From contig JAGAIM010000082.1 in the NCBI GenBank assembly GCA_017626555.1, positions 1 through 47,712 on the forward strand: 47,712 nucleotides of DNA, in the 5' to 3' direction. A program made the translations under genes and the position numbers. This DNA is from Bacteroidales bacterium (GTDB lineage Bacteria; Bacteroidota; Bacteroidia; Bacteroidales; UBA932). Positions within the stretch are counted from its first letter, which is position 1, and each line of letters opens with the position of its first letter. Below are positions 23,618 to 44,275 of this stretch, piece by piece. A model generated the notes under the pieces. That model made no database searches. It saw only the letters and a list, made by a program, of their open reading frames with translations, and had not been told where the DNA came from.

Positions 23618-23627
23618 TATGTCAGAT

Positions 23628-23685
23628 AAAAAAAGACTGATATTCAGGTGAAACCCCAGAAATATCAGTCTTTTTCTATTTTTAT
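23628..23685. terminator. Bidirectional intrinsic terminator
   Basis: A-run plus GACTGATATT at 23628-23644 pairs with AATATCAGTC plus T-run at 23661-23675, loop of 16 nt. It serves the plus-strand acyltransferase gene and the minus-strand operon ending with the MscS gene. Confidence 0.92.
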
Positions 23686-23690
23686 TCGGG

Positions 23691-24608
23691 TCAGTCCTGG
23701 TGAACGTGAATATCCATCTGAGGGAATGGGAACTTGATGCCATTTTTAGGGAGTTCCTCGTATATCTTTCCGTTCATATCGAAATTCACATCCCAGTAGT
23801 CGGCTGAATGAACCCAACCTCTCATTACGAACTTAACACTGCTGTCCGATAGCGAATGAACAGCCACAAAAGGATCTGCAGGTGCTCCTTTTGCAACATT
23901 GAGTATTCTTATATCACCTTTCAGCAATGACATAAGTACCTCCTTGGTACCTTCTGAAGAAGAACCGTATTCTACACTGACTATCCATTCCAGTCTTCTT
24001 AGGGTATTGTCAGAAAAATTATTTACCGTACCATTGAAAAGTGCACCGTTAGGGATGATTATGGACTTGTTGTCAACAGTCGTGAGTTTCGTATTTACGA
24101 TATTCACCTCGGTAACAGTGCCTTCATATCCTTGTGCCTGAATATAATCGCCGGCTTTGAATGGCTTGAAGGCTATTATCATAATTCCACCCGCAAAATT
24201 CTGCACGGTACCGTTCAAAGCCATACCGATAGCCATTCCGCCACCTGCAAGCAATGCTGCAATTGAAGTGGTGTCAATGCCTACTGCTCCGATTGTTATG
24301 ATTATCAAAATAACAGTAAGAGCAATGCTGACTATGCTTTGGGTAAATGAGGATATCGCAGCGTCGGTCTTCTTTCTTTCGAAGATACGCGCAATGATGG
24401 TTTTGATTTTTCTTATGATCCAGGCTCCGATAAGATAAATCGCTAAAGCGGCAAGCAGTTTCAGACCGAAATTGACTGCCTTGTCGATAAGTTCTGATAC
24501 CAGAGTGGTTACTGGAGTTGTTGACAACTTTTCTGCTACAGCGGCAATATGTTGCTGTACATCTATCGTATCGATGGGTTGTGTTTGTAGTAAATGGATG
24601 ATTTTCAT
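23691..24608 (-). CDS. MscS-family mechanosensitive channel
   Basis: Small-conductance channel of the inner membrane, 305 residues. The pore helix shows the Ala/Gly-rich MscS TM3 pattern (IAALLAGGGMAIGMALNG), then the beta domain start NFAGGIMIIAFKPFKAGDYIQ and PNGALFNGTVNNFSD, which is the MscS signature. Two membrane helices precede it. The C-terminal domain ends in FPQMDIHVHQ. It follows the cysteate synthase gene by 14 bp with no terminator between, so it is likely the last gene of the Hdr operon. MscS relatives elsewhere release osmolytes or amino acids; any link to cysteate is speculative. Confidence 0.93.
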   Translation of the reverse strand: MKIIHLLQTQPIDTIDVQQHIAAVAEKLSTTPVTTLVSELIDKAVNFGLKLLAALAIYLIGAWIIRKIKTIIARIFERKKTDAAISSFTQSIVSIALTVILIIITIGAVGIDTTSIAALLAGGGMAIGMALNGTVQNFAGGIMIIAFKPFKAGDYIQAQGYEGTVTEVNIVNTKLTTVDNKSIIIPNGALFNGTVNNFSDNTLRRLEWIVSVEYGSSSEGTKEVLMSLLKGDIRILNVAKGAPADPFVAVHSLSDSSVKFVMRGWVHSADYWDVNFDMNGKIYEELPKNGIKFPFPQMDIHVHQD

Positions 24609-24622
24609 CGCTTTTGATACGT

Positions 24623-25912
24623 TTATTTAAATAAATTCTCCACCTTTGTGATTATCTCATCTTCATTTGAAGATGGGTCAAGGATAAGATCTGGCATTGC
24701 ATTGAAGATCTCTACTTCTGATTTTGCAAGTTCTTCTCCTGCACCTGTGATGTTGAGCATAATCACATCTTCTGCTGTTACAGTCTTCTCGGAAACAGCC
24801 TGAGCAAGTGATGCAACTGCAACGGCTGCAGCATTATGTATGTCTATACCTTCGAGCGCAGCAAATTTTTCTTTCCAGATATGCAGTTCTTCGTTAGTTA
24901 CCTTATATATATCTCCTCCAGCATCAGCAAGAGCGTCATAAAGGCCGCCTGCTACAGGGTATGGAGGTTTTCTGTTCGAGAGCACTTTAGCATCAATTAT
25001 TGCTGCTGCATTGCGTGCTTCTTCTGGGGACATCGGAACAAGAGATCTGGAATTTGCTTTCCACGAATCATACATAATGGTGAACGGGGCATTCTGTGAT
25101 GGATATAGTCTCATCTTGTGGGTACCGTATCTTCCGTCTTCAATGAGTCTTAGATTGTTTTCCCAGGCTGCGATTGTGCCTGTACCGCTTCCTATTGCTT
25201 GGAAATATGCATCCGGAATTCTACCTATCACTTCAACGGCTGACAGAAGAGTTGTGCCCATTCCATCTCTTCTCGCTATATTCTTTGCGCCTCCTTCTGC
25301 CATAAACATATTGCTTTTGCAGGCAATATCAGAAAGTGCTATAGCATCGAAATAATCGGATCCTGCAGGTGAGGCTATTATCTTGACACAGTCTTTCAAC
25401 GGTTTCTTGAACCATAATGCATTGATATTGTCCAAAGGAATCGAAAGCAGCAGAGGAATATTGTTTTCAGAACATACCTTGGCAAATGCACGGGCAGTAT
25501 TTCCCGCCGAGGCTACAACCAGTATTTTCTTGTTGTCCTCTGGAAGCCTGGCGCATACTGAGTATGCTTCTGTTTCCTTGAATGAACAAGTCTCCATCTT
25601 TGCTCCAATTGCAGGGTAATATCCTGATAATGTGATGTATAGGTTGTCGAGTCCGAGTTCTCGTGCTAAATTCTCAGATTTATATGTTACCGGTGCGCAG
25701 GATCCGGAAAGAGTCCTCTTTATCGGGAGCCAGTCGGCGAAGCGGTAGAATCCTTCAAGATCTGTTCTTGGATTATACTTCCGGGTTTCGTATTCTGCCC
25801 TTACAAGGCTTGGCGATGGTGACTGTGGATCTGCAAGAGTCCAGCCTTCATCCTCGAATCTTCTGCCGTCCACGCAGTTGATGAGGTTGTACTTTGTAGG
25901 TTTGAATGTCAT
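24623..25912 (-). CDS. Cysteate synthase (threonine synthase-like PLP enzyme)
   Basis: Predicted to make L-cysteate from O-phosphoserine and sulfite. The 429-residue protein is a fold-type II PLP enzyme related to threonine synthase. YYPAIGAKMETCSFKETEA (about 99-116) holds the probable PLP lysine Lys112, followed by VVASAGNTARAFAKVC (phosphate/PLP binding), GSGTGTIAAWEN (glycine-rich loop) and LNITGAG near the end. The SGYYP-METCSFKE pattern is that of archaeal cysteate synthase from coenzyme M synthesis, not of standard ThrC. In Bacteroidota the same activity feeds capnine-type sulfonolipids. Co-transcribed 11 bp after the Hdr fusion. A divergent threonine synthase is the alternative. Confidence 0.82.
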   Translation of the reverse strand: MTFKPTKYNLINCVDGRRFEDEGWTLADPQSPSPSLVRAEYETRKYNPRTDLEGFYRFADWLPIKRTLSGSCAPVTYKSENLARELGLDNLYITLSGYYPAIGAKMETCSFKETEAYSVCARLPEDNKKILVVASAGNTARAFAKVCSENNIPLLLSIPLDNINALWFKKPLKDCVKIIASPAGSDYFDAIALSDIACKSNMFMAEGGAKNIARRDGMGTTLLSAVEVIGRIPDAYFQAIGSGTGTIAAWENNLRLIEDGRYGTHKMRLYPSQNAPFTIMYDSWKANSRSLVPMSPEEARNAAAIIDAKVLSNRKPPYPVAGGLYDALADAGGDIYKVTNEELHIWKEKFAALEGIDIHNAAAVAVASLAQAVSEKTVTAEDVIMLNITGAGEELAKSEVEIFNAMPDLILDPSSNEDEIITKVENLFK

Positions 25913-25923
25913 ATCTGTATGTT

Positions 25924-27783
25924 TTAACGTTTTCTTTTCATTGTTGCTTCGTCAAGTATTTCTGCAATGTCCTTTACCGGTATGTCGGAATACCTGTTGA
26001 ACGTGCTCCTGCATAGCGGACAGGCTGTGACAATGGTATCGGGGGAGGCTATTCTTAGATTGTTCAACGCATTCTCCGTCAGTGCTTTGCGTTTCTCGAA
26101 ACTTAGAGTGAGACTGCCGAGGCTGCCACCGCAGCATATACTTTCCTTTCTGTTCTTTTCTCCTTCAACAAGTTTACCGGCCATATTCACTATATTACGG
26201 GGCTGATCATATATGCCGCATCCACGTCCAAGTTCGCAAGGATCGTGATATGCATATTTTTTGTCTTCCTTGTTTACCGAAAGCCTACCTTCATTGATCA
26301 GTCTGTCAAAGAATTCAGTATGATGTAAGATTTCTATGCCTTCAAGATCGTATCTCTCCTTGAATATCTTGTAGCAGATCGGACAACTCAGCAGCAGGGT
26401 ATCGGCTCCGGATGCCTTGATGATGGCAGTATTTTTGGCAATCATTTCTTCAGCCTGTTCGATCCTTCCTGCCGTCATCATTGGTCTTCCGCAGCAGATT
26501 CCTCCATCCTTGTCCATAATTTCGTATGAAATACCGGATTTCTGCAATAATGATGTAGTCGCTTTGCTGATTGCCGGTGTCAAGGCTGTCATACATCCTG
26601 AGAAATATATAACCTTTTGATTTTTACTTGAAGTAACATTTGTGTTTGATGTGTTAACAAATTTGTTACATCGAGAAATCAGGATATTTTCATCTATATT
26701 TGCATAACTAGGTGCGAGATTATACTTTCTGAGTGATCTCTGGGCGATCCTCATTTTGTCGCCTTCAACTCCTACCGGGCATACTGCAGTACATTTTCCG
26801 CACAGCAGACATTTGTCACTGATCTCCTCAATCCTTCGTTCATTATAACGCTTTATCTGCCTGTTGAGATATACTGTAGTATCTTTTATGTTTGCCTTTA
26901 CCGCACTCATCGGACAAGCATCAATGCATACGCCGCATCCGGGGCAGGAATAAACCTGAAGTTTTGCAATGCCCTTACGTGCGTGTCTGACTTTGATTCC
27001 AGCGTTTCTTAAAGGTATAAGCAGGATTTCAGCCGGGATATGCATATATCGGCTGAAAGGAAGTATGCACATAAAGATGCATAGTGCGATAGAGTATGCC
27101 CACCAGGTCGGAAGCATATTCATCTGGTCGCTCAGGAATGAATGAAGTACTGTATTGAGTGATTTCGTCAGAAATGATCCTCCGCTGATATCGGCTGTGA
27201 AGCCTTCTGCAAGCAGACGCAGGGGAAATATGCTCCATAGGGAGTAAAGGCCGATAAGGTCGGTAATGCTGGCTCTTGTAGTGCGTCTCATACCGAAGAA
27301 ACGGGAACGTATCCTTTTTACTATGGCCAGCACGATGCCGCTCAATATAACGAGAAGGAAGAAATCCATCAGAAAAAAGAAGAAGGATCCCTTCATTGTG
27401 TTTTCTGTCACGGCTACAAAGTATCTGAAAAATATCGGATACCATACCTGATGCATTCTTTCGGGTGTATATAGGAATACCTCTATATGTCCGATCACGA
27501 TGATCATAAACCATCCGAAGGCTATGCTTGAATGCATATATCCCAGTAACTTGTTGCGTTTCCACAATTTGACGTGGAACAGGCAGTCGCAGAACCAGTC
27601 CCTGATGTTCTTGAGCATTATTCTGGGGTTGATAAGGGACAGGAAAAATTTCTTTCTGTCATCGGCAGGCAGTTGGAGGATGATTCTGACGGCACCGATG
27701 GCACACCAGGATAAAACGAATATCATTCCTATCATAAATGGAATGATGAAGTTACTGTAACCGGAAAGATATATTTCTCTCAT
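25924..27783 (-). CDS. Membrane HdrE/ferredoxin/HdrD-like fusion protein
   Basis: 619-residue redox protein with three parts. Residues 1-260 hold about five membrane helices resembling the NarI/HdrE/DsrM cytochrome b type, with possible haem ligands His84, His99 and His214. Then come two [4Fe-4S] motifs, Cys280-283-286-290 and Cys325-328-331-335. The HdrD-like C-terminus carries two complete CCG motifs: Cys397, Cys430-Cys431, Cys467 with Cys470, and Cys516, Cys550-Cys551, Cys588 with Cys591. CCG motifs bind non-cubane clusters that handle disulfides. The layout suggests electron transfer between menaquinone and a cytoplasmic disulfide or sulfur substrate. Overlaps hdrC2 by 4 nt. Family confident; reaction unknown. 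Confidence 0.88.
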   Translation of the reverse strand: MREIYLSGYSNFIIPFMIGMIFVLSWCAIGAVRIILQLPADDRKKFFLSLINPRIMLKNIRDWFCDCLFHVKLWKRNKLLGYMHSSIAFGWFMIIVIGHIEVFLYTPERMHQVWYPIFFRYFVAVTENTMKGSFFFFLMDFFLLVILSGIVLAIVKRIRSRFFGMRRTTRASITDLIGLYSLWSIFPLRLLAEGFTADISGGSFLTKSLNTVLHSFLSDQMNMLPTWWAYSIALCIFMCILPFSRYMHIPAEILLIPLRNAGIKVRHARKGIAKLQVYSCPGCGVCIDACPMSAVKANIKDTTVYLNRQIKRYNERRIEEISDKCLLCGKCTAVCPVGVEGDKMRIAQRSLRKYNLAPSYANIDENILISRCNKFVNTSNTNVTSSKNQKVIYFSGCMTALTPAISKATTSLLQKSGISYEIMDKDGGICCGRPMMTAGRIEQAEEMIAKNTAIIKASGADTLLLSCPICYKIFKERYDLEGIEILHHTEFFDRLINEGRLSVNKEDKKYAYHDPCELGRGCGIYDQPRNIVNMAGKLVEGEKNRKESICCGGSLGSLTLSFEKRKALTENALNNLRIASPDTIVTACPLCRSTFNRYSDIPVKDIAEILDEATMKRKR

Positions 27784-28118
27784 CGCTTGTCCTCCTTATC
27801 GTATATACGGCAGATAGACAGTATCAGATGCCTTGTGTTGATTCCCCTTGGGCACACCATTGTACATTTTCCGCATAACATACAATTGTTCATCATTCTG
27901 AATGCTTCCTCTTCCTTGCCTCTTTGCAGACAGAGCAGAACTTTTCTTACACTCATTCCGGAGAACTCGGATGCTGGGCAGGTCGCACTGCAGGCTCCGC
28001 AGGACATACATCTTGCAGCATCCGGCTCTATGCGGCATAACTCTTCAAATCGGCTTCTGTCGATTGTGTCCAGATTCATTGCTGAACTGGGAGATATTCT
28101 GAATCCGAAAATGCTCAT
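27780..28118 (-). CDS. HdrC-like ferredoxin, second copy
   Basis: 112-residue electron-transfer protein with two [4Fe-4S] motifs, Cys37-40-43-47 and Cys79-82-85-89, in the arrangement of heterodisulfide reductase subunit C. An N-terminal tail of about 30 residues and a short basic C-terminus complete it. It overlaps both neighbours by 4 nt, which argues for a fixed stoichiometry with the HdrA-like and membrane HdrD-like proteins. It probably carries electrons between their clusters. Confidence 0.88.
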   Translation of the reverse strand: MSIFGFRISPSSAMNLDTIDRSRFEELCRIEPDAARCMSCGACSATCPASEFSGMSVRKVLLCLQRGKEEEAFRMMNNCMLCGKCTMVCPRGINTRHLILSICRIYDKEDKR

Positions 28119-29137
28119 TTTTTGCCTGCTGTTATTTCAGAATGTATATCAAGTACTGCTGAACGGGCTTCTGCAAGCGTTTCCGGTACTGTCTTTGGTC
28201 CTGTACACGCTCCTGCGTAGTATATGCCTTTACGCGGGGAGGAGGTTATGTGGAATACGTTGTCGCTACTTTGAAGAAATCCGTCCGAGTCAATAGGAAG
28301 ATGGAGCATTGATGCAGCCTTCGTACTGTCAGGATTGCATACCATACCTGACATAAGCACCAGAAGGTCAAGAGTCACTTTAAGAGGTTTTCCCGCTAGA
28401 GTGTCCTCTGCTTTGACAATCACCTGGCCATTGATATTTTCGCTCACTTCCGAAACTCTTCCTCTGATAAAGTGTATGCCGTGGTCACGTTGCGCTTTTG
28501 TATAGAAGTCTTCGAATTTCTTGCCGAAGAGTCTCAGGTCCATATAGAAGCAGAAGACTTCCGATTCAGGAAACTTTTCCTTCATCTCGATGGCCTGTTT
28601 AATGGCAGTGATACAGCATACTTTAGAACACTGGGAGTTCCTTGCCTTTTCATCACGGGAGCCGACACAGTGAACGAATCCTATCTTCCTTATATCTTTA
28701 CCACTTATTCTTTTGTCTTTGTCAGTGTTGAACCAATTCTCGAGGTCTGCGTTTGTAAGTACTTGATTGTAAACACCGTAGCCGTACTCTTCCTTTTTCT
28801 GTGCCTCAAATAGCCTGAATCCTGTAGTATAGAGAATAAATCTCGAATTAATGGATATACCGTTAGACAGCATCACATTATAACTGTCTTTGAGACGGTT
28901 TACAAATGAAATCTCTGTGTTAAGGAATATGTTGGCATCCTTGCTTGATGCAATCAGGTCATCAACAATATCTTTTGCCGGAGTCATATCCGGAAATAGT
29001 CTGTTCCATCTGGCTACGTGTCCGCCAAGGCGGTCATTCTTTTCTATGATGATAGGTGAATATCCCAATTTGAGCAGTTGAGTTGCCGCTTCGAGGCCGG
29101 CAATTCCACCTCCTATAATTACAACTATCTCTTTCAT
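28115..29137 (-). CDS. HdrA/QmoA-like FAD protein
   Basis: 340-residue flavoprotein. The N-terminal FAD motif is GGGIAGLEAA (9-18), with Glu32 for the ribose. LGGHVARWNRLFPD follows. The HdrA-type iron-sulfur motif HCVGSRD...QCSKVCC has Cys157, Cys170, Cys174 and Cys175, the C-x12-C-x3-CC spacing of HdrA. GIYYAGACTGPKTVPETLAEA closes the FAD site. It lacks the extra ferredoxin domains of methanogen HdrA and is nearer QmoA in size. The ATG at 29137, 2 nt after the preceding stop, is preferred to a GTG at 29149. Likely the flavin centre of the complex. Confidence 0.9.
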   Translation of the reverse strand: MKEIVVIIGGGIAGLEAATQLLKLGYSPIIIEKNDRLGGHVARWNRLFPDMTPAKDIVDDLIASSKDANIFLNTEISFVNRLKDSYNVMLSNGISINSRFILYTTGFRLFEAQKKEEYGYGVYNQVLTNADLENWFNTDKDKRISGKDIRKIGFVHCVGSRDEKARNSQCSKVCCITAIKQAIEMKEKFPESEVFCFYMDLRLFGKKFEDFYTKAQRDHGIHFIRGRVSEVSENINGQVIVKAEDTLAGKPLKVTLDLLVLMSGMVCNPDSTKAASMLHLPIDSDGFLQSSDNVFHITSSPRKGIYYAGACTGPKTVPETLAEARSAVLDIHSEITAGKK

Positions 29138-29139
29138 AA

Positions 29140-30210
29140 TCAGAAACACTTAAGGTTTTCCGGAAGTCCGGGACGCATAATGTCTTTCCTGTTCAATCCT
29201 TTATACTTGTCTTCTGCGCAGTATTCGATGCCGATTTTGTCCAGGAGAGGTTCCACTGCAACCTGATGCAACTGCAGTCCGAGATCCCAGGGATCATATC
29301 CAAGCACGAGTCCGGCCACTTCCTCGTATGTGAGAACAGGGATTCCATAACCGTTCTGTCCGTAGGTCTTGCCTTCCATTTCTGCAATCACATATTGCCA
29401 TCTGTCAAGAAAATAAGGACATCCCGGACAGTTTGTAATGATCATATCAGGCTTGTAAGGCTCCATAGATTCGAATTTCTTGTGGGTATTCGAGAGGGAA
29501 TATCCTCTATTGGCCTTTACGTGGTATTGTCTGAAGCCATATCCGCAGCAATGCCTTCTTTCCGGATAGTCGATGACGTTTCCGCCCCAGGATTCAATCA
29601 TTCCGGCAAGTACGTATGGATATTCGGCTCCTCCGACACCTTTGGAAGGGAACATCTTTGAATAGTGACAGCCGATGTGCTCGACAACTCTCAGAGGCTC
29701 ACCGTTTTCTTTATCCACAAGCCTGAACCTGGCTTTCTCTGCTATATCGTTGCGATATTTATATATCAAGTCACTTGAGTGTGCAAGATATTTGGGTTTA
29801 TTGAATTCCTTGCGGCAGGCCTTCCAGAGCATCTCACGTATTTTTGCTTCCAGTTCAGGGAATTCGTGCCAGGTCTCAAGGATCTCTGTATAGTTTCCGA
29901 ATGAGGTTATGCAGGATGCGACGTAATTCTCATATCCCGCTTCTGTCATTAAAGCGAATTGTCTGGCAACTATGGTCATTGCGGTTTCCTGAGGAATCGT
30001 GTCGCAGTGATAGGCGATGCCACCGCAAGTAGTATGATGTTCAGTCTCATAGAAATCCTTTCCCAATACGTTTCTGCAGATTTCCATCATCATTCTTTCC
30101 GAGCCTGGAAAGAAGTTCTGTCTGATGCAACTCCTTACATAAAACCAATGATCATCTGGAATTTCTTTCTGATAATCACTCCATATCTTCTGTTTGCCTT
30201 GATATATCAT
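29140..30210 (-). CDS. HdrB-like protein with one degenerate CCG motif
   Basis: 356-residue relative of heterodisulfide reductase subunit B, the substrate-site subunit. The C-terminal CCG motif is complete: Cys181, Cys221-Cys222-Gly, Cys261-x2-Cys264 (NCPGCPYF). The N-terminal one is not: Cys28, then Thr61-Cys62-Gly and Cys100-x2-Ser103, so two expected ligands are missing. One non-cubane cluster is therefore likely, not two. The protein is longer than typical HdrB, with an extra C-terminal segment of about 75 residues. Starts 2 bp after hdrC. Confidence 0.88.
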   Translation of the reverse strand: MIYQGKQKIWSDYQKEIPDDHWFYVRSCIRQNFFPGSERMMMEICRNVLGKDFYETEHHTTCGGIAYHCDTIPQETAMTIVARQFALMTEAGYENYVASCITSFGNYTEILETWHEFPELEAKIREMLWKACRKEFNKPKYLAHSSDLIYKYRNDIAEKARFRLVDKENGEPLRVVEHIGCHYSKMFPSKGVGGAEYPYVLAGMIESWGGNVIDYPERRHCCGYGFRQYHVKANRGYSLSNTHKKFESMEPYKPDMIITNCPGCPYFLDRWQYVIAEMEGKTYGQNGYGIPVLTYEEVAGLVLGYDPWDLGLQLHQVAVEPLLDKIGIEYCAEDKYKGLNRKDIMRPGLPENLKCF

Positions 30211-30212
30211 AC

Positions 30213-30911
30213 CTACTCGTTGTTAAAATGTCCTTCCGAGCAATGCTCGAATGTATGGCGGAAATATTCTTCCATTGTCATTCCCATCTCTTCTGCCTTT
30301 TTGCGTGAGCATTGCTCTACAGTCTGCATTCTCTCCGTGCCTCCTGTGACATCAAATATCCTCCTGAGTTCATCAAGTGATTCCTGAGGAATCTTTCTCA
30401 GGATACCAGGTCCGGAACCTTTGAAGTTGCCACCGAGGCGGGCATAACTGTCCTCCAGATGTTCTGTATGCCATTTCCAGACAGGACCGGATTCTACGTG
30501 ATCCTCCCAACTGAAGGTATCAGGATATATACAGTATCCATAATTGAGAATGTTGTCCGTCATTATCTTGGTAAGCGGATAAAGTTGACGTCCTTTCTCA
30601 GATGCCGTGAAGTAGCCAAGTTTTGCTGAAAGATTTCTCAGTGCCATAATCACCAGTCCGGGACCGTTCTTGCGTGGGCATCTTGTAAGGCAGGACATAC
30701 ATTCACCGCAATACCATATAGTGTCGCTCTTCAGAAGGGCTTCGATTTCTTCGTCGTTTCCTCTCTGGACAGTATCCACGATCCTGCGTGGATCATATCT
30801 GTAAAATTCTGCAGCAGGACAAATCGCAGTACAAGTGCCGCAGTTGATACAGGTCTTCAAGCCTTCTTTGACGCGATAGTCCTCGCGGAGCATATCATAT
30901 AGTTTGCCCAT
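30213..30911 (-). CDS. HdrC-like iron-sulfur protein, first copy
   Basis: 232-residue protein with two [4Fe-4S] motifs in HdrC style, Cys21-24-27-31 and Cys68-71-74-78, followed by a C-terminal extension of about 150 residues without recognised motifs. It should pass electrons between the HdrB-like and HdrA-like subunits. It starts 3 bp after the exchanger gene and ends 2 bp before hdrB, so it is part of one tight transcription unit. Confidence 0.88.
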   Translation of the reverse strand: MGKLYDMLREDYRVKEGLKTCINCGTCTAICPAAEFYRYDPRRIVDTVQRGNDEEIEALLKSDTIWYCGECMSCLTRCPRKNGPGLVIMALRNLSAKLGYFTASEKGRQLYPLTKIMTDNILNYGYCIYPDTFSWEDHVESGPVWKWHTEHLEDSYARLGGNFKGSGPGILRKIPQESLDELRRIFDVTGGTERMQTVEQCSRKKAEEMGMTMEEYFRHTFEHCSEGHFNNE

Positions 30912-30914
30912 AAA

Positions 30915-31874
30915 TTAAAGATTTGCAATGAGATACCACATATATCCCACTTCCATAAGAAGCAGGATTACGCCTTCAAACCTGTCGAGTTGCCTCTTCT
31001 TGAACAGGTAAGCGCTGGTCAGTATGAACAAAGCGCTGATAAGTACGGCACCGAGATCGACTGGAGTCATTCCGGTGAATGACAATGGGTTGATCAGTGC
31101 CGCTCCACCAAGAATAAGCAATATGTTGGAGATATTCGAGCCAAGTACATTGCCGAGAGCAAGTTGTCCTCTTCCTTTAAGTGCTGCTACGACGCAAGTT
31201 GCAAGTTCCGGCATAGATGTTCCGGCTGCCATAACTGTAATGGCAATGAATTTGTCTGAAACTCCGAACATTTTCGCTAGTTCTGTGGCAGAGTTGACGA
31301 AAAGCCTGCCTCCGATGATCAGTCCGGCAAGTCCTGCTACAATAAGAAGAACTGATATTCCTGTCTTGTAGTCCTTGATGCTTTCTCCGTCTTCTCCCGA
31401 ATCGCCGGCATCAGAGCGGAAGGAAGTCCAGATGTACCAGGCAAAGACAGCAAGAAGTATAGCGCCATCTATTCTTGACAACTGATCCTGGCCTTTGCCG
31501 AACAGGGTAAAGTTCATTCCAAGTACTATGAGAAGTGCGGTAACAATTATGTTTAACGGAATGTCTTTCTTCAAGTTGCTCTTTGTTATGGCAAGAGGGG
31601 AGATCAGAGCAGTGACTCCCAGAATCATCATAGTGTTGAATATATTCGAGCCTACGATATTTCCTATTGCCATATCGGCCTTGCCTTGGAAGGATGAAAG
31701 GAAACTCACAACCATCTCAGGGGTCGATGTACCGATTCCTACTATTGTAAGTCCGATCACGAATTCGCTTATGCCAAAACGCTTGGCAATGCTTGAAGAT
31801 CCATCAACGAGCCAGTTGGCTCCGAAAAGAATCAGCAGAAGACCTGCCAGAAGAATGAAAATCTGCAAAACCAT
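30915..31874 (-). CDS. CaCA-superfamily sodium/calcium exchanger, copy 1
   Basis: Membrane antiporter of 319 residues with about ten helices and two inverted alpha repeats. Repeat 1 is GIGTSTPEMVVSF with GNIVGSNIFNTMMILG; repeat 2 is AAGTSMPELATCVVAALKG with LALGNVLGSNISNILLILG. The group includes YrbG-like and K-dependent exchangers; the ion is not set by sequence alone. It lies 3 bp before the Hdr genes and appears to lead their operon. A paralogue lies at 38934-39890. Confidence 0.92.
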   Translation of the reverse strand: MVLQIFILLAGLLLILFGANWLVDGSSSIAKRFGISEFVIGLTIVGIGTSTPEMVVSFLSSFQGKADMAIGNIVGSNIFNTMMILGVTALISPLAITKSNLKKDIPLNIIVTALLIVLGMNFTLFGKGQDQLSRIDGAILLAVFAWYIWTSFRSDAGDSGEDGESIKDYKTGISVLLIVAGLAGLIIGGRLFVNSATELAKMFGVSDKFIAITVMAAGTSMPELATCVVAALKGRGQLALGNVLGSNISNILLILGGAALINPLSFTGMTPVDLGAVLISALFILTSAYLFKKRQLDRFEGVILLLMEVGYMWYLIANL

Positions 31875-31909: not shown

Positions 31910-31917
31910 CAAAGTTA
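31910..31917 (-). promoter_or_regulatory. -7 box leading the exchanger-Hdr-cysteate operon
   Basis: TAACTTTG on the minus strand matches TAnnTTTG. Start near 31903, leader about 29 nt. No TTTG at the -33 position. Divergent from the box at 31940-31947. Confidence 0.45.
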
Positions 31918-34726: not shown

Positions 34727-36463
34727 TTAAGAAATCTTGAGTTTGGTTTTGTAGAGTGTCTGTGAAATATTGATCATAAAGTCACCCATTGTCTCAAGTT
34801 CAGAAACGATATCCATATAATAGACACTCGTCTGATAGTTCTTGCGATCGCTTTCAATGCTTTCGATTTCTTCATCCCTGAGGTTGTTCCTGAGGTTGTT
34901 GATCCTATCTTCTGCAGCGTACGCATTCGAGATTTCTTCGAGTTTACCGTCAAATGCAAGTTTGAGATTCTGTATCATCACTTCGTAAGTGTTGTCCACG
35001 AGGTCTATCATTGCATTCAATTTCTTGATGGTATTGTCGTCAAATGTCTTATTATGAAGATTTCTGCGTGAAAGAATCCTGCTGATGCTTTCTCCGGAGT
35101 CTCCCAAAGACTCGAGTTCGCCTATGATCTTATACATCGCCTTGATCATCAATGATGTTCTTTCACTGATTTCTTCAGCGGAAACAGCATTCAGGAATGT
35201 TGCTATTTCATATTCGATTCTGTCAGAAATCTCCTCATATTTAACGAGTTTGCCTCTAAGTTCTTCGAATTTGCCGGGATCAGTCTCATTTATTGCAGCA
35301 CGTGCATAGCCGAGGCCGTTCCTGGAAATCTGGGCAAAGTGAATGATTTCGTTGAATGCCTGTTCGGTGGCAAGTTCTGGAGTCGCAAGCGGACCAGCCT
35401 CTATGTATTTGAGCCTGAATGCTTTCTCTTCCTTGTTCTCCGGCTCCTTTATAAGTTTGGTTACGACTTTCGCTATCAAACCTGTAAACCATACGAGTAT
35501 CAATGTGTTGATGAGATTGAAAAGAGTATGGAGCATAGAAAGTCCGTACAATGCAGCGGTTCCGTCCGCTCCATCAGGATTCATAACGGCAAATCCTTCT
35601 GCTGCCGGATTCGGGAATCCCATCAGTTCGATGATTTTTCCTACCAGATTAAGGAAAGGACGGAACAGGATCAATGCCCATATAACACCGAATACATTGA
35701 AGATCGTGTGGGATAATGCAGCACGTTTTGCAGCCGGATTACCAACTGCTGCCGCTATGTTTGCTGTGATGGTTGTACCGATGTTTTCTCCAAGAACCAT
35801 CGCGCAGGCCATAGGGAACGGTATCCAACCCATACTCAACATAATCAAGGTGATAGCCATCGTTGCCGATGATGACTGCAGGATGAGTGTGAGAACAGTT
35901 CCTACTCCAAGGAAGATAAGGACTGACCAGAATCCGTAACCGGACCATTGCTTTACAAACTCAAGCACTTCCGGAGTCTGCTTGAGATCAGGGACTGATT
36001 CCTTCATAAATGAAAGGCCGAGGAAAAGGAGGGAGAAACCGACAATAAGTTCTCCTATGTTCTTGTTTCTGTCTTTCTTTGAGTTCGAAAAGAGGAAGCC
36101 CAACAGCATCAAAGGAACGGCAAGGATGGAAATGTCGGCCTTGAATCCGAGAAGGGACACCATCCAGGCTGTGATTGTAGTACCGATGTTCGCTCCCATA
36201 ATCACACCGATGGCCTGAACCAGGGTCAGGAGACCGGCGTTTACGAAACTTACTACCATAACCGTTGTGGCAGATGATGACTGGATCAGTGCTGTTATGC
36301 CTACTCCAGTTGCAACTCTCTTGAACGGATTCGATGTCATTGCAGAAAGAAAGCCTCTGAGTCTGTCTCCGGCGGCTTTTTGAAGTCCGGAACTCATAAG
36401 GTTCATTCCGTAAAGGAACATACCCATCGCACCGAACAAAGTGAAGAATTGTAAGATACCCAT
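34727..36463 (-). CDS. Na/Pi cotransporter family protein, copy 1
   Basis: 578-residue membrane protein of the NptA/PNaS type with a cytoplasmic PhoU-like C-terminus. Two inverted repeats carry the QSSSATT signatures (IQSSSATTVMVVSF and LQSSSATMAITLIML), each followed by GANIGTTITAW or GENIGTTITANIAAAVG. From about residue 360 the sequence is helical and charged (PhoU-like, ESLGDSGESISRILSRR). It likely takes up phosphate with sodium, though similar proteins have unknown substrates. Very similar to the gene at 37173-38906. A TACTTTTG box lies at 36492-36499. Confidence 0.92.
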   Translation of the reverse strand: MGILQFFTLFGAMGMFLYGMNLMSSGLQKAAGDRLRGFLSAMTSNPFKRVATGVGITALIQSSSATTVMVVSFVNAGLLTLVQAIGVIMGANIGTTITAWMVSLLGFKADISILAVPLMLLGFLFSNSKKDRNKNIGELIVGFSLLFLGLSFMKESVPDLKQTPEVLEFVKQWSGYGFWSVLIFLGVGTVLTLILQSSSATMAITLIMLSMGWIPFPMACAMVLGENIGTTITANIAAAVGNPAAKRAALSHTIFNVFGVIWALILFRPFLNLVGKIIELMGFPNPAAEGFAVMNPDGADGTAALYGLSMLHTLFNLINTLILVWFTGLIAKVVTKLIKEPENKEEKAFRLKYIEAGPLATPELATEQAFNEIIHFAQISRNGLGYARAAINETDPGKFEELRGKLVKYEEISDRIEYEIATFLNAVSAEEISERTSLMIKAMYKIIGELESLGDSGESISRILSRRNLHNKTFDDNTIKKLNAMIDLVDNTYEVMIQNLKLAFDGKLEEISNAYAAEDRINNLRNNLRDEEIESIESDRKNYQTSVYYMDIVSELETMGDFMINISQTLYKTKLKIS

Positions 36464-36491
36464 AATTAAGTTTGAAACTCTGAATCGGGAG

Positions 36492-36499
36492 CAAAAGTA
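36492..36499 (-). promoter_or_regulatory. -7 box for Na/Pi transporter copy 1
   Basis: TACTTTTG on the minus strand matches TAnnTTTG. Start near 36485, leader about 22 nt. The -33 is unclear. Confidence 0.45.
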
Positions 36500-36562
36500 A
36501 TAAGTTTGTTAACGAATCTTAATCATAGACTGTTAATTTTTTGTTAAATGTAAGTGAAACAT

Positions 36563-36587
36563 AAAAAAGCCCGACATAGCGTCGGGC
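36563..36587 (-). terminator. Intrinsic terminator after the SLC13 remnant
   Basis: GCCCGAC at 36569-36575 pairs with GTCGGGC at 36581-36587, loop of 5 nt, with six T residues on the minus strand (36568-36563). It follows the stop codon of the original SLC13 frame at 36611. Confidence 0.88.
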
Positions 36588-36610
36588 AATTCCACGTAAT
36601 GACCTTATGA

Positions 36611-37110
36611 TCAGATACCGATGAAGATAAGCATCATATATGCTAAAGCAAATCCTATTATGCCGACAATAAGGCCCACAACGGCCATCTGCTTGGTGTT
36701 GATGATGCCTGTAGAATGGCAAGAATAACGTCAAGTCCCACCTTCGAAGCCGCAATAGCAAGTACGAAGCCACCGAGAAAGAGCATAATCACAGGATCAG
36801 CAAACGCTGCCATAATTGACTTGTAGTCAACTAATGTACCGGCGCCTTCATACATCATAAAACCGATACCCTTGTTGGAAATGGTGAGAAGCATTATCAC
36901 CATAGAGAGGACAGAAGTAGTCCAGGTCGGAATTACTTCAATGATCCACATCAATGCGGTGAACACAAAGATAGCAATGGTTCTCTGCATCACAGGAGTT
37001 AAGCCTTCAATGCCGAAGAAAGATGTAGGCACAGCCCACAGGAAGATCGTCAGCGCCAGGACAATGCCTAACGCAATCATATTCTTTATGGAAAGTTTAT
37101 CAGTACCCAT
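36611..37110 (-). pseudogene. Internally deleted SLC13 (DASS) anion:sodium symporter
   Basis: From 37110 an intact N-terminus reads as an SLC13/DASS carrier for about 128 residues: membrane helices with LWAVPTSFFGIEGLTPVMQR, MWIIEVIPTWTTSVLSMV, and FADPVIMLFLGGFVLAIAAS. Near 36707-36720 it jumps, in another frame, to what looks like the carrier C-terminus (TGIINTKQMAVVGLIVGIIG, stop at 36611). The middle, roughly 300 residues, is missing. Read from its own start the product is only 150 residues and ends at 36658 after a short frameshifted tail. Transport is not expected. Terminator and flanking genes are intact. Confidence 0.8.
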
Positions 37111-37172
37111 TTCTTATTAATGAGTGATCGACTCATCAGCGATGTAAATGGTTAATATTTAATTGAATAGGA

Positions 37173-38906
37173 TTATTTTTGGATAAATGCTTTTTCCAGA
37201 GCCTGAGAGATGTTGATCATAAAGTCGCCCATCTTTTCAAACTCATTGACAATATCCATATAATAGACACTTGTCTGGTAGTTCTTTCTGGCGCTCTCAA
37301 TATTCTCGATTTCAGAGTCTCTGAGATTGTTTCTGAGATTGTTGATACGGTCCTCAGCATTGTATGCATTGGATATTTCGGTCAATCCGCCGCTATATGC
37401 TGATGAGAGGTTCGCTATCATTGCATCGTAAGCGTGTTCAACGACGTCGGCCATATTGTTCAGATTCTTTATTGCATCATCATCAAATACTTTCTTGTGA
37501 ATATTTCTCCTTGAAAGGATGCGACTTATGCTTTCACCAGAGTCTCCAAGAGATTCCAGTTCGCCTATGATCTTGTACATAGCCTTGATTTCTCTGGATG
37601 TTTTTTCACTTATCTCTTCTGCAGATACGGCATTGAGGAATGAGGCAATCTCGTACTCGATCCTATCGGAAATCTCTTCATATTTGACCAGTTTGCCCCT
37701 TAGTGCTTCGAATCTGTCCGGATCTGTTTCGTTGATGGCGGCACGGGCATATCCTAATCCTTTCTTGGATATCTGTGCAAAATGGATTATCTCATTGAAA
37801 GCCTGTTCTGTAGCCAGTTCCGGTGTTGCAAGATGACCGGCTTCGATGTATTTGAGCCTGAATGTCTCGGCATCCTGATTGGCAGGAGTCTTTATTATCC
37901 AGATGACAAGTTTCTCGATATATCCCGTGAACCAGATGAGAATCAGCGTGTTGATAGTGTTGAATAATGTGTGGAGCATCGACAGTCCGTATAGAGCGGC
38001 TGTACCATCGGCAGAATTAGGGTCTGCGACGGCAAATCCTTCTGCTGCAGGATTCGGAAGGCCGAAGAGTTCAATGATTCTTCCGACCAATCCGAGGAAA
38101 GGCCTGAACAGAATCAACGCCCATACAACACCGAATACATTAAATATTGTATGCGACATTGCGGCGCGCTTTGCAGAAGTGTTTCCCACAGAAGCGGCGA
38201 TGTTTGCAGTGATCGTAGTACCGATATTTTCTCCCAGTACCATAGCGCAGGCCATATTGAACGGTATATAACCCATACTGAGCATAATCAGGGTTATGGC
38301 CATTGTTGCCGAAGAAGACTGAAGTACGAGTGTGAGCACTGTACCGAAAGCCAGGAATATAAGCACAGACCAGAATCCATAACCTGACCAAGTCTTGACG
38401 AATTCCAGAAACTGAGGGGTTTCAGACAGATCCGGAACAGATTCCTTCATAAACGAAAGTCCGAGGAAGAGAAGGGAGAAACCTACGATAAGTTCGCCGA
38501 TATTCCTATGTTGATTTTTCTTTGAATTGGAAAACAGGAAACCCAGCAGCATAAATGGCACAGCCAGGATGGAAATGTCGGCTTTGAATCCTAACCACGA
38601 CACCAGCCAGGCTGTGACTGTCGTACCGATGTTGGCTCCCATAATGACTCCGATCGCTTGTACAAGTGTAAGAAGTCCTGCATTGACGAAACTGACTACC
38701 ATTACGGTCGTTGCCGATGAAGATTGAATGATTGCAGTGATTCCCAATCCGGTCATAACGCGTTTGAACGGATTGGAAGTCATTGCGGAGAGGAATCCTC
38801 TGAGTCTGTCTCCTGCAGCCTTCTGCAGACCGGAACTCATCAGATTCATTCCGTAAAGGAACATACCAAGTGCTCCCAATAAGGTAAATATCTGTAATAT
38901 ACCCAT
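37173..38906 (-). CDS. Na/Pi cotransporter family protein, copy 2
   Basis: 577 residues, same plan as copy 1: QSSSATT repeats, GENIGTTITANIAASVG and a PhoU-like C-terminal half. Most positions are identical between the two, with scattered conservative changes and a more different tail (SQALEKAFIQK against SQTLYKTKLKIS). This points to a tandem duplication that has since diverged. It lies 27 bp downstream of the second exchanger gene and may be co-transcribed with it. Confidence 0.92.
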   Translation of the reverse strand: MGILQIFTLLGALGMFLYGMNLMSSGLQKAAGDRLRGFLSAMTSNPFKRVMTGLGITAIIQSSSATTVMVVSFVNAGLLTLVQAIGVIMGANIGTTVTAWLVSWLGFKADISILAVPFMLLGFLFSNSKKNQHRNIGELIVGFSLLFLGLSFMKESVPDLSETPQFLEFVKTWSGYGFWSVLIFLAFGTVLTLVLQSSSATMAITLIMLSMGYIPFNMACAMVLGENIGTTITANIAASVGNTSAKRAAMSHTIFNVFGVVWALILFRPFLGLVGRIIELFGLPNPAAEGFAVADPNSADGTAALYGLSMLHTLFNTINTLILIWFTGYIEKLVIWIIKTPANQDAETFRLKYIEAGHLATPELATEQAFNEIIHFAQISKKGLGYARAAINETDPDRFEALRGKLVKYEEISDRIEYEIASFLNAVSAEEISEKTSREIKAMYKIIGELESLGDSGESISRILSRRNIHKKVFDDDAIKNLNNMADVVEHAYDAMIANLSSAYSGGLTEISNAYNAEDRINNLRNNLRDSEIENIESARKNYQTSVYYMDIVNEFEKMGDFMINISQALEKAFIQK

Positions 38907-38933
38907 AATGATCAGTTATTTATGTTGTTGAAA

Positions 38934-39890
38934 CTATGCAATCTGGTTACTGAGCAGAAACCAGGTATATGCAATGAAACAGATGAACATCAATGCTCCT
39001 GAAACTCTTCCTATCTTACCTTTGATGCCTAAAATGACTGTTGCGATGGCAGCACCTATCATAACAGCATAGTCAACGGCGGTAATTCCTGATGAGTTGA
39101 GAGGCATTACCTGGGAACTGATACCAAGGATCAAGGTAATGTTGAAAATGTTCGATCCGATAATGTTTCCCAATGCCAACTGCGTATTCTTTTTAAGTGC
39201 GGCAGCAACAGAGGCTGCAAGTTCAGGAAGGGAAGTACCGCAGGCGATAAGAGTAAGCGATATGAATGCATCGTTCACGCCAAAAGACTTGGCGATGAGA
39301 ACGGCATTATCAACAAAGAAATCGCAACTTGTGATCAATACGGCAAGACCACCCAGTACTTTCAGTATGGCGAGCCATAGGGGAGTCTTCTCCTCCGGAG
39401 TTTCGGCCTGTTCTGCTGTAATAGCGTTTTGTTTGCTGTCTCTGTAGAATGAATACCACATAAACAGGGCAAAACATACAAGAAGCACAAGTCCATCAAT
39501 CCTGCTTATCGTCGGAATATTTCCATTGAAGAAATTGAATACCAATATGGTAAGAAGAATTGAAACTCCTATGCATAAAGGCATTTCAAATTTCATATTG
39601 TCCTTATTGACAGCGATAGGGAAGAATATTGCAGTGATGCCGAGGATACCTAAAATGTTGAAAATGTTGGATCCGACAACATTTCCAATGGCGACATCTG
39701 CGTTTCCTTGGAGCGCTCCTATGAAACTTACGACCAGTTCCGGCATAGAAGTTCCTACTCCTACGATTGCGGCTCCGATCACAAAGTCAGAGACTTTGAA
39801 CTTTCTGGCTATGGATACTGCTCCGGCTACGAGATAATCAGCACCAAATACAATACCGGCCAAGGAAATCAAAAGAATTACGTATTCCAT
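38934..39890 (-). CDS. CaCA-superfamily sodium/calcium exchanger, copy 2
   Basis: 318-residue membrane antiporter with two alpha repeats: VGVGTSMPELVVSFIGALQG with GNVVGSNIFNILGILG, and ACGTSLPELAASVAAALKK with LALGNIIGSNIFNITLILG. It shares the fold and motifs with the copy at 30915-31874, but loop and helix sequences differ clearly, so this is an older paralogue. Placed 2 bp after the small membrane protein gene. Confidence 0.92.
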   Translation of the reverse strand: MEYVILLISLAGIVFGADYLVAGAVSIARKFKVSDFVIGAAIVGVGTSMPELVVSFIGALQGNADVAIGNVVGSNIFNILGILGITAIFFPIAVNKDNMKFEMPLCIGVSILLTILVFNFFNGNIPTISRIDGLVLLVCFALFMWYSFYRDSKQNAITAEQAETPEEKTPLWLAILKVLGGLAVLITSCDFFVDNAVLIAKSFGVNDAFISLTLIACGTSLPELAASVAAALKKNTQLALGNIIGSNIFNITLILGISSQVMPLNSSGITAVDYAVMIGAAIATVILGIKGKIGRVSGALMFICFIAYTWFLLSNQIA

Positions 39891-42690: not shown

Positions 42691-43386
42691 ATGGCAAAGA
42701 AAGAGAAAATAAAGAGTCTGTTCGACAATATTGCGCAGGATTATGACAAACTCAACCATATTCTGTCTCTGAATATAGACAAAGGATGGCGCAGGAAGGC
42801 TGTCCGTGAAATCATTGACCGTCCGGAAAAGTTCAGAGTACTTGATGTGGCTTGCGGAACTGGAGATTTTACAATAGAAATTGCCAAAAAAGCAGTGGAA
42901 GGCAGCAGCATAACCGGTATCGATCTCTCGGAAGGGATGATGGCTGTCGGCAGAGAGAAGATTGCAGCGGCTGGGATGGATGCTGTACTTGAATATGGAG
43001 ATTGTGAGACACTGAAATATGCAGACGGCACTTTTGACAGGGTTTCGGCTGGCTTTGGTGTGCGTAACTTTGAACATCTTGATATTGGTTTGAAGGAAAT
43101 GTGTCGTGTCCTTAAATCCGGTGGTAAACTAGTGGTTCTTGAATTGTCTGTTCCTTCGGATCCTTTCATCCGCTGGTGTTACAAATTGTACTTTTTGAAT
43201 ATATTGCCTGCAATCGGTGGATTTGTGTCCGGCAACAAAGGTGCCTACAGATATCTCCCGGCTTCAGTGTTGAATTTCCCTGCTCCAGACAAGTTCATCA
43301 AAATGATGTATGATGCAGGATTCCGCGAAGTACGCCACAAGGCTTTCACCTTCGGGATATGTCGTATGTATGTTGGAATCAAATGA
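42691..43386 (+). CDS. menG: Demethylmenaquinone methyltransferase
   Basis: Class I SAM methyltransferase (UbiE/MenG family), 231 residues, last step of menaquinone synthesis. The N-terminus KIKSLFDNIAQDYDKLNHILSL and the SAM motif VLDVACGTGDFTIEIA (near 50) are diagnostic, with GFGVRNFEHLDIGLKEMCRVLKSGG in the middle and YRYLPASVLNFPAPDKF near the end. Next to menA, so menaquinone rather than ubiquinone is the product. 7 bp before menA. Confidence 0.95.
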   Translation: MAKKEKIKSLFDNIAQDYDKLNHILSLNIDKGWRRKAVREIIDRPEKFRVLDVACGTGDFTIEIAKKAVEGSSITGIDLSEGMMAVGREKIAAAGMDAVLEYGDCETLKYADGTFDRVSAGFGVRNFEHLDIGLKEMCRVLKSGGKLVVLELSVPSDPFIRWCYKLYFLNILPAIGGFVSGNKGAYRYLPASVLNFPAPDKFIKMMYDAGFREVRHKAFTFGICRMYVGIK

Positions 43387-43393
43387 TAGTGAA

Positions 43394-44275
43394 ATGATAA
43401 GCAAATGGATTGAGGCAATCCGTCTAAGGACTCTGCCGGTCAGTATTGCAGGTGTCCTGACGGGAATTGGACTGGCCGTATGGCAGGGTGGATTCTCAAT
43501 AGTACCGGCAGTCTTGTGCTTTGTGTTTGCCGTTACTGCCCAGATTGCTTCCAATTTTGCAAATGAATATTATGATTACAAGAACGGGATGGATCGTAAG
43601 GGAAGGGATGGATTCAGAAGGGGAGTTACAGAAGGTGACATTACTCCGCAGGCTATGAAATTCGCTACGTTCGGGATGCTTGGCCTTGCCGCCATAACAG
43701 GCTGCGCGATGCTGTTTATCGGGGGGTGGTGGCTTCTGCCCGTGGGTATCTGTATCCTGCTTGCAGCATTGGCATACAGTACCGGGCCTTATCCTTTGTC
43801 ACATCACGGACTTGGGGATATTACTGTGGTGATATTCTTCGGTGTAGTTCCTGTCACTCTGACATACTGGCTCCAGACCGGAGAATGGGCTGAATTATCT
43901 GCTGTAGTGACAACTTCCATAACTGTCGGCCTTCTTGCAGCAAATGTTCTCATTGTAAATAATTATCGTGATATGGACGATGATAATACGGTAGGTAAGC
44001 GGACAACGGTAGTGATTTTCGGGCGCAAGGTTATGGGTAATGCATATCTTTTATCAGGTATTCTTGCTATGGCCTTGATGATTCCTTTATGGCTTATGCT
44101 TCCTATATGGGCTATGATTGTACCTGCCGTTTATCTTCTGTTTCATTTCCAAGCCTGGCGCAGGCTTGTCAGAAACAAAGGTGCCGCCCTCAATCCAGTC
44201 TTAGGAATCACTGCTCGTAATCTCTTGATATTCAGCCTGATGCTTTTGGCTGTCCTGGCATTGTGCTCCTTATAA
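43394..44275 (+). CDS. menA: 1,4-dihydroxy-2-naphthoate polyprenyltransferase
   Basis: UbiA-superfamily membrane prenyltransferase, 293 residues with about eight helices, attaching the isoprenoid tail to DHNA. Both Asp-rich motifs are present: NEYYDYKNGMD (57-67) and NNYRDMDDDNTVGKRT. The ATG at 43394 is chosen because it begins the classic ISKWIEAIRLRTLPVSIAG N-terminus and follows the menG stop by 7 bp; an upstream ATG lies within menG. Confidence 0.95.
   Translation: MISKWIEAIRLRTLPVSIAGVLTGIGLAVWQGGFSIVPAVLCFVFAVTAQIASNFANEYYDYKNGMDRKGRDGFRRGVTEGDITPQAMKFATFGMLGLAAITGCAMLFIGGWWLLPVGICILLAALAYSTGPYPLSHHGLGDITVVIFFGVVPVTLTYWLQTGEWAELSAVVTTSITVGLLAANVLIVNNYRDMDDDNTVGKRTTVVIFGRKVMGNAYLLSGILAMALMIPLWLMLPIWAMIVPAVYLLFHFQAWRRLVRNKGAALNPVLGITARNLLIFSLMLLAVLALCSL

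Follow-up and report, generated by a model that had tools for sequence, protein, structure and literature searches.

The closest described relatives of the locus analyzed here are the sHdr systems of Hyphomicrobium and others, in which subunits resembling those of heterodisulfide reductase (Hdr) are encoded in the order sHdrC1-B1-A-(Hyp)-C2-B2 and act with LbpA. According to an excerpt of PMC11582611, C1-B1-A is joined in type I systems by C2 and B2, which in type II systems are fused; the same excerpt and one of PMC10332631 name sulfite as the product of the sHdr-LbpA system. Excerpts of PMC12713407 and PMC9304779 give phosphoserine and sulfite as the substrates of cysteate synthase, and cysteate as that of SulA, respectively. 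The known sulfonolipid pathway consists of cysteate synthase or CapA, SulA/CapB and ketocapnine reductase/CapC, and the descriptions of it that we found include no Hdr complex. In this work we analyzed a stretch of 47,712 nucleotides from a Bacteroidales bacterium (contig JAGAIM010000082.1; hereafter the window). The assembly to which it belongs as contig C17 (genome G000) has 3.09 Mb and is 95% complete. The window holds five Hdr-like genes in one minus-strand operon with an archaeal-type cysteate synthase gene (Table 1). These five genes form a Bacteroidales cassette whose steady partner is SulA, not cysteate synthase.

The cassette has the gene order HdrC-B-A-C2-ED, which resembles the C1-B1-A-C2-B2 set and order of the sHdr systems and comes close to types I and II without matching either. 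The Hdr names draw on NCBIfam scores and on solved homologues, and "Hdr-like" is the safe wording because the NCBIfam matches fall below the curated cut-offs. Conservation of the cluster ligands was counted over Bacteroidales sequences, many of them close relatives. The eight cluster cysteines of HdrC are kept in 99-100% of 169 sequences, those of the HdrA motif (C161/C174/C178/C179) in 99-100% of 167, and the eight of HdrC2 in every one of 128 (rounded to two digits). HdrB has a complete C-terminal CCG motif (C181, C221, C222, C261 and C264) and an N-terminal motif reduced to three cysteines (C28, C62 and C100), and each of these eight residues occurs throughout a set of 180 sequences (rounded to two digits); it scores 116 bits against the methanogen-type solved HdrB. 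HdrA is short, like 6tjr, which we take to be a Hyphomicrobium protein, and scores 196 bits against methanogen HdrA, yet aligned in separate pieces.

The fifth subunit sets the cassette apart from both sHdr types, as its B2-like part is fused to a ferredoxin and a membrane domain. All 18 cluster cysteines of this HdrED protein are kept in 99-100% of 150 sequences, with both ferredoxin and both CCG motifs (C397/430/431/467/470 and C516/550/551/588/591) retained, and His70, His84 and His248 are conserved in all of them (to two digits). With both of its CCG motifs complete and its membrane histidines conserved, HdrED would belong with the HdrDE-type proteins, and its HdrE part is probably a haem protein. 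Methanosarcina HdrDE and DsrMK also combine a cytochrome-b-like membrane part with a two-CCG HdrD/DsrK part, whereas the window version is a single fused chain that is combined with HdrCBA and HdrC2. The DsrK and HdrB models match HdrED below their cut-offs, and its nearest solved chain is 9ojn (65 bits; 125 bits by profile), apparently EtfD judging by its title and its length of 1042 amino acids (aa). EtfD, the ETF:menaquinone oxidoreductase, likewise has a membrane part, two cubane clusters and two CCG domains. In it, Thr539 replaces one CCG cysteine and His583 is an added ligand, the clusters being fully coordinated and shielded (excerpt of PMC13083937), whereas HdrED keeps all ten CCG cysteines (among them C430-C431 and CPIC467-470) and has no such Thr or His ligands. 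Since neither of these changes occurs in the window protein, HdrED looks like a catalytic HdrD. Its neighbor, moreover, is HdrA instead of an electron-transfer flavoprotein (ETF), and no ETF gene was found among the 38 proteins of the window that were compared with Pfam, a set that leaves aside about ten smaller or housekeeping open reading frames (ORFs) and all those below 100 aa.

The link of the cassette to lipid genes is strong. We used an order sample of 295 Bacteroidales genomes and a family sample of 199 genomes of the window's family; named loci are the best 80 of 579, and counts of gene runs exclude those loci whose run meets an end. In the order sample HdrB was found in 91 genomes, SulA in 208 and a CapA-like protein in 54. 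SulA was present in 84/91 genomes with HdrB vs 124/204 without it (odds ratio (OR) 7.7, p 7e-9, a value which, like all p-values of co-occurrence given here, is optimistic, the genomes being related by ancestry), bearing out the co-occurrence with cysteate acyltransferase genes that the original prediction had offered as a check. The difference was also seen in high-quality genomes (80/82 vs 100/162) and by genus (62/66 vs 72/117). Three of the 91 genomes carry only a paralogous HdrC-HdrB pair, and the SulA count without them is 81/88. The known pathway served as a positive control: the pairing of SulA with any cysteate synthase gave an OR of 9.2, little above that of SulA with HdrB.

Gene order points the same way. 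In three other families the cassette lies in one run with SulA and a CapA-like synthase, and in a fourth it adjoins SulA: the runs are SulA-CapA-HdrC-B-A-C2-ED-KCR-VOC in G041, SulA-CapA-HdrC-B-A-C2-ED in G108, and SulA-CapA-KCR-VOC-HdrC-C2-ED-B-A, with small extra ORFs between, in G081 and G185, which belong to one genus; in G141, SulA follows HdrED. Five such links among the 81 genomes outside the window's family that have HdrB and SulA would arise by chance with a probability of about 2e-4 (2e-3 if G081 and G185 are counted once). The name CapA is putative; on account of its position and of a split reported in an excerpt of PMC10191378, we give it to a threonine-synthase-like protein that is 23-25% identical to the window synthase and whose best model is threonine synthase, below cut-off. 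Of the 80 named loci, nine (L104, L106, L112, L120, L127, L169, L171, L175 and L176) have the cassette preceded by SulA and followed by cysteate synthase in runs defined by script; L154, where HdrC was not called, was added by eye. In nine of these ten the order is VOC-like gene, SulA, SDR, Hdr cassette and cysteate synthase, L104 having no SDR. At L179 the VOC-like gene and the SDR are present without SulA. The script's SulA count also includes L119 (8871-14505), where only a 140-aa SulA piece precedes the cassette and a short synthase piece follows it; the operon may have decayed there, or the assembly may have a gap. Several families also have in their SulA/Hdr runs a gene for a VOC-fold protein of some 356 aa, with no more than a weak glyoxalase match (L106:6141-7220; also at L074, L075, L224 and L265), which is a candidate for a new sulfonolipid gene.

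The SulA of L106 scores 542 bits against 7u7h vs 232 against serine palmitoyltransferase, and a lysine lies 30 residues past its pyridoxal-phosphate (PLP) lysine, as counted by eye. This spacing, the same as that of Lys251 and Lys281 of SulA in the excerpt of PMC9304779, supports the assignment. G000 itself holds the gene expected of a sulfonolipid producer, a SulA (cysteate acyl-ACP transferase) at G000:C59:10933-12165 (L249) that is 72% identical to the one of L106. It sits after a gyrB-like gene (by eye) with no adjacent SDR; in the six relatives compared, an SDR directly follows SulA.

The tie to cysteate synthase, which the original prediction placed at the center, is narrower. The window synthase itself is firmly assigned by its sequence, with 567 bits against the solved chain 9k3c, 'Cysteate synthase'. 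Within the window's family HdrB was found in 91 genomes, cysteate synthase in 105 and both in 78 (OR 18). In 64 of these 78, from eight genera, the two lie within 10 kb of each other; in the remaining 14 they are on different contigs (11 genomes) or more than 100 kb apart (3 genomes). Consistently, the synthase is in the run of the cassette in 59/72 named loci. Across the order, cysteate synthase was found in 82/295 genomes and together with HdrB in 33 (OR 1.8, p 0.035). Outside the family, none of the 30 genomes with both has them within 10 kb and in 25 they are on different contigs, so that cysteate synthase is not a constant partner. This is the separation in most relatives that the original prediction had named as counting against it. 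The predicted tie of a quinone-type Hdr complex to the synthesis of cysteate and sulfonolipids is supported within the family and, through SulA and the CapA-like synthase, in other families. The window's family is the only one in which the archaeal-type synthase was seen next to the cassette, and this synthase never shares a genome with the CapA-like protein (0/136). As 84/208 SulA genomes have neither synthase, a third route to cysteate may exist. Methanosarcinales use such a cysteate synthase to make coenzyme M, and an Hdr complex beside it could for this reason suggest coenzyme M synthesis; lipids are favored because SulA is the steady partner.

We examined 100 of the 103 HdrB places of the order sample, the other three being the window itself and two fragments. 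HdrC, HdrA and HdrED adjoin HdrB at 80 of them, 14 are paralogous HdrC-HdrB pairs and six are partial; 92 have no SulA, synthase, KCR-like or VOC-like gene, some of these loci being shortened by contig ends. The cassette is therefore a unit of its own. The paralogous pairs, which lack HdrA and HdrED, perhaps represent a second sulfur-related Hdr locus. At L048 (5828-10275) the pair neighbors a methionine gamma-lyase, a CoA-disulfide-reductase-like protein and an Mrp-type ATPase, and at L192 (5854-12154) OsmC and MinD/Mrp-type ATPases.

As for function, the explanation that we favor is that the cassette encodes an anabolic, membrane-anchored, sHdr-like electron-transfer complex, which would oxidize reduced sulfur to sulfite for cysteate and sulfonolipids and deliver the electrons to menaquinone; in our judgment it falls just short of an even chance. 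What we observed is the gene content, the conservation of the cluster ligands and of the linkage, and the joint occurrence with SulA, whereas the direction of the electrons, the sulfite product, the menaquinone acceptor, the sulfur donor, the haem and the fumarate reduction of the following scheme are inferred. HdrB, together with the HdrD part of HdrED, would oxidize thiol-bound or persulfide sulfur at their non-cubane Fe-S clusters, stepwise and with six electrons in total from sulfide, to sulfite; HdrA, through its FAD, and the two HdrC ferredoxins would gather the electrons, and the HdrE part would hand them to menaquinone. Fumarate reduction could re-oxidize the menaquinone. Cysteate synthase would couple the sulfite with phosphoserine, and SulA and a ketoreductase would convert the cysteate to capnine. 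That the Hdr complex produces sulfite is about as probable as that it does not. We are more doubtful of the wider idea, possible as it is, that a membrane-bound, menaquinone-linked Hdr oxidizes sulfide or persulfide to sulfite without oxygen and in this way lets gut bacteria without sulfate assimilation make sulfonate lipids, perhaps with a gain or a cost of energy at the quinone pool.

Energetically, a membrane module would make sense, since by the redox potentials that we used the oxidation of sulfide to sulfite yields 24 kJ/mol on menaquinone (-24 kJ/mol) and costs 118 kJ/mol on NAD+ (+118 kJ/mol). Electron delivery to menaquinone, as originally predicted, is plausible with a MenA gene in the window. 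MenD was not found in any of the 23 family genomes tested (G000 and 22 others), the futalosine route not having been searched for; the simple reading of MenA without MenD is scavenging of dihydroxynaphthoate (DHNA).

The sources of sulfur give a mixed picture. Family PF01507 covers both CysD and CysH, which we separated by match length alone, and the CysH and CysD counts comprise strong rows only (eleven weaker or very long-frame rows, in G034, G052, G097, G098, G106 twice, G113, G122, G206, G213 and G290, were omitted). Outside the window's family, 67 of 79 genomes with cysteate synthase have a PF01507 match, CysH is missing in 13/30 with HdrB vs 7/49 without (p 0.007), and CysH and CysD are both missing in 12/30 vs 3/49 (p 6e-4). 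Within the family, PF01507 was found in 10 of 66 chosen genomes, with both types only in G336 and G471, and no match was found in G000. A strict replacement of sulfate assimilation by Hdr is ruled out there, as 14 of the 16 cysteate-synthase genomes without HdrB also have no PF01507 match, so that sulfite must be obtained elsewhere in them; the tendency persists outside the family. A search of 36 chosen genomes detected TusA in 11. Hdr and TusA tend toward mutual exclusion in the family, a contrast between two genera, with G224 and G297 carrying both. A TusA-fed sHdr system as such is ruled out, there being no TusA in G000. At L245 (985-3162) of G313, a family member which has cysteate synthase and no HdrB, one long frame contains CoA-disulfide reductase, TusA and DsrE2 parts.

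Several of these observations weigh against a sulfite-producing complex that serves the lipids. The 14 family genomes with neither HdrB nor PF01507 do without such a complex, and TusA is present in 7/7 of those with cysteate synthase that were tested; by contrast, this protein, which sHdr systems may use, is absent from G000 and from 14 of the 16 Hdr-linked family genomes tested. A search limited to the eight operon genes, the two flanking genes and the remaining scanned proteins of the window found no LbpA-like or lipoyl-protein gene; the operon, linked to lipid genes instead of sulfur respiration, thus lacks the LbpA of the sHdr systems. DsrE was likewise not found among the 38 scanned proteins. 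Outside the family, CysD alone is missing in 12/30 genomes with HdrB vs 11/49 without, which is not significant (p 0.13). HdrB is not enriched with the CapA-like protein (OR 0.75), and a role of Hdr as partner of any cysteate synthase can be set aside for lack of enrichment (47/91 vs 89/204, p 0.21); 40 genomes with HdrB and SulA have neither known synthase. To these are added the missing MenD, the 92 loci without a sulfonolipid gene and the shared ancestry behind the p-values.

The linkage and co-occurrence would fit equally well a complex of thiol/disulfide chemistry that makes no sulfite, in which quinol electrons reduce a disulfide, an S-sulfonate or a trisulfide, or excess sulfite is removed. 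The DsrK and HdrB matches of HdrED agree with this, as does its likeness to the quinol-driven HdrDE and DsrMK, and complete CCG motifs suit the cleavage of disulfides. However, an FAD-bearing HdrA with two HdrC proteins is an sHdr-type set beyond the needs of a simple quinol:disulfide reductase, and the excess of CysH-less genomes among HdrB carriers would be expected of a sulfite source more than of a sulfite sink; we consider this explanation unlikely, though less so than the two that follow.

The cassette could also serve anaerobic respiration in Bacteroidales at large and, in some lineages, do no more than share promoters with lipid genes, as the many loci without such a gene and the restriction of the neighboring archaeal-type synthase to one family would suggest. 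This is unlikely in view of the five SulA links outside the family, which have differing gene orders and a different synthase, and of the near confinement of HdrB to SulA genomes among those of high quality. Quite unlikely, finally, is a complex that acts on the lipid or acyl chain and not on sulfur, carrying out a quinone-fed redox reaction on capnine lipids in which the VOC-fold protein may take part. SulA accompanies HdrB far more often than any known synthase does (84 vs 47 of 91 genomes), and a VOC-like gene and an SDR lie within the same runs; nevertheless, CCG enzymes with full ligands are known for disulfide or sulfur chemistry, and the paralogous pairs of L048 and L192 adjoin genes of sulfur chemistry.

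Among the papers listed by our literature search, mostly outside subscription journals, none connected an Hdr complex with the synthesis of sulfonolipids, and the literature examined offered no explanation of where strict anaerobes that do not assimilate sulfate obtain the sulfite for cysteate. According to the abstract of PMC11211663, sulfonolipids formed in the human body are believed to influence health. If a sulfite-producing Hdr complex is correct, an enzyme family of methanogenesis and sulfur respiration would also serve lipid synthesis, sulfide-rich guts would supply the head groups of lipids with sulfur, and the quinone pool would govern how much sulfonolipid is made. Even without sulfite as product, a five-gene redox complex so closely tied to SulA would be an unrecognized part of sulfonolipid biology.

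Regarding the operon as a whole, the eight minus-strand genes predicted at 23691-31874 were all recovered as ORFs with the same coordinates and strand. The gaps along the run are +3, +2, -10, -4, -4, +11 and +14; the predicted range of -4 to +14 holds, as the -10 turns into +2 if HdrA begins at an internal ATG, possibly its true start (29137), four codons inside the listed GTG. Mis-assembly is ruled out by the identical gene order in many separate metagenome-assembled genomes (MAGs). The nearest named relatives are Bacteroidales MAGs, mostly from ruminant, horse or chicken gut, and several of them are Candidatus Cryptobacteroides. The strong terminator of the original prediction was borne out by folding (0/200 shuffles as good). 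Its -7 box is more equivocal: the letters fit TAnnTTTG, which we take to be the Bacteroidota -7 consensus, and a single match is weak because the window holds 49 (shuffle mean 32; 0/100 shuffles reach 49).

Table 1. Features of the window, with coordinates on the forward strand.
Feature	Coordinates	Strand	Basis
MscS mechanosensitive channel	23691..24608	-	PF00924, PF21082, PF05552
Cysteate synthase (PLP enzyme, archaeal type)	24623..25912	-	TIGR03844 445.7 bits, cut-off 324.9
HdrED fusion, 619 aa: cytochrome-b-like membrane part, two ferredoxin motifs, two complete CCG motifs	25924..27783	-	domain matches
HdrC2, small two-cluster ferredoxin	27780..28118	-	Fer4 families
HdrA-like, short FAD protein	28115..29149	-	end-to-end alignment with 349-aa chain 6tjr, 195 bits
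HdrB-like	29140..30210	-	CCG PF02754; solved HdrB chains 9sfi, 5odc
HdrC-like, two [4Fe-4S] ferredoxin motifs	30213..30911	-	Fer4 families and HdrC models
CaCA sodium/calcium-type exchanger	30915..31874	-	PF01699 229.9 bits; TIGR00367 233.8 bits, cut-off 179.65
Terminator hairpin with U run	23628..23685	-	fold of 23620-23690, -25.8 kcal/mol, z -6.3
Possible -7 promoter box TAACTTTG	31910..31917	-	fits pattern TAnnTTTG; weak
MenA, DHNA polyprenyltransferase, outside operon	43310..44275	+	TIGR00751 158.8 bits, cut-off 102.15

The two transporter genes at the ends of the operon differ in how often they accompany the cassette: MscS is a frequent neighbor (44/70 named loci) and the exchanger an occasional one (10/69). 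Neither thus looks like a part of the machine, both being too poorly conserved beside the cassette. Scans of the window for tRNAs and Rfam families gave no match, and the absence of tusA, dsrE and lbpA from the window, as originally claimed, agrees with the lack of any Pfam match for TusA, DsrE or a lipoyl-protein among the 38 scanned proteins. Of note, a group of transporters lies at 34727-39890, with two Na/Pi cotransporter-PhoU proteins (34727-36463 and 37173-38906), a short DASS-type anion-symporter piece between them (36658-37110) and, near this pair, a second CaCA exchanger (38934-39890).

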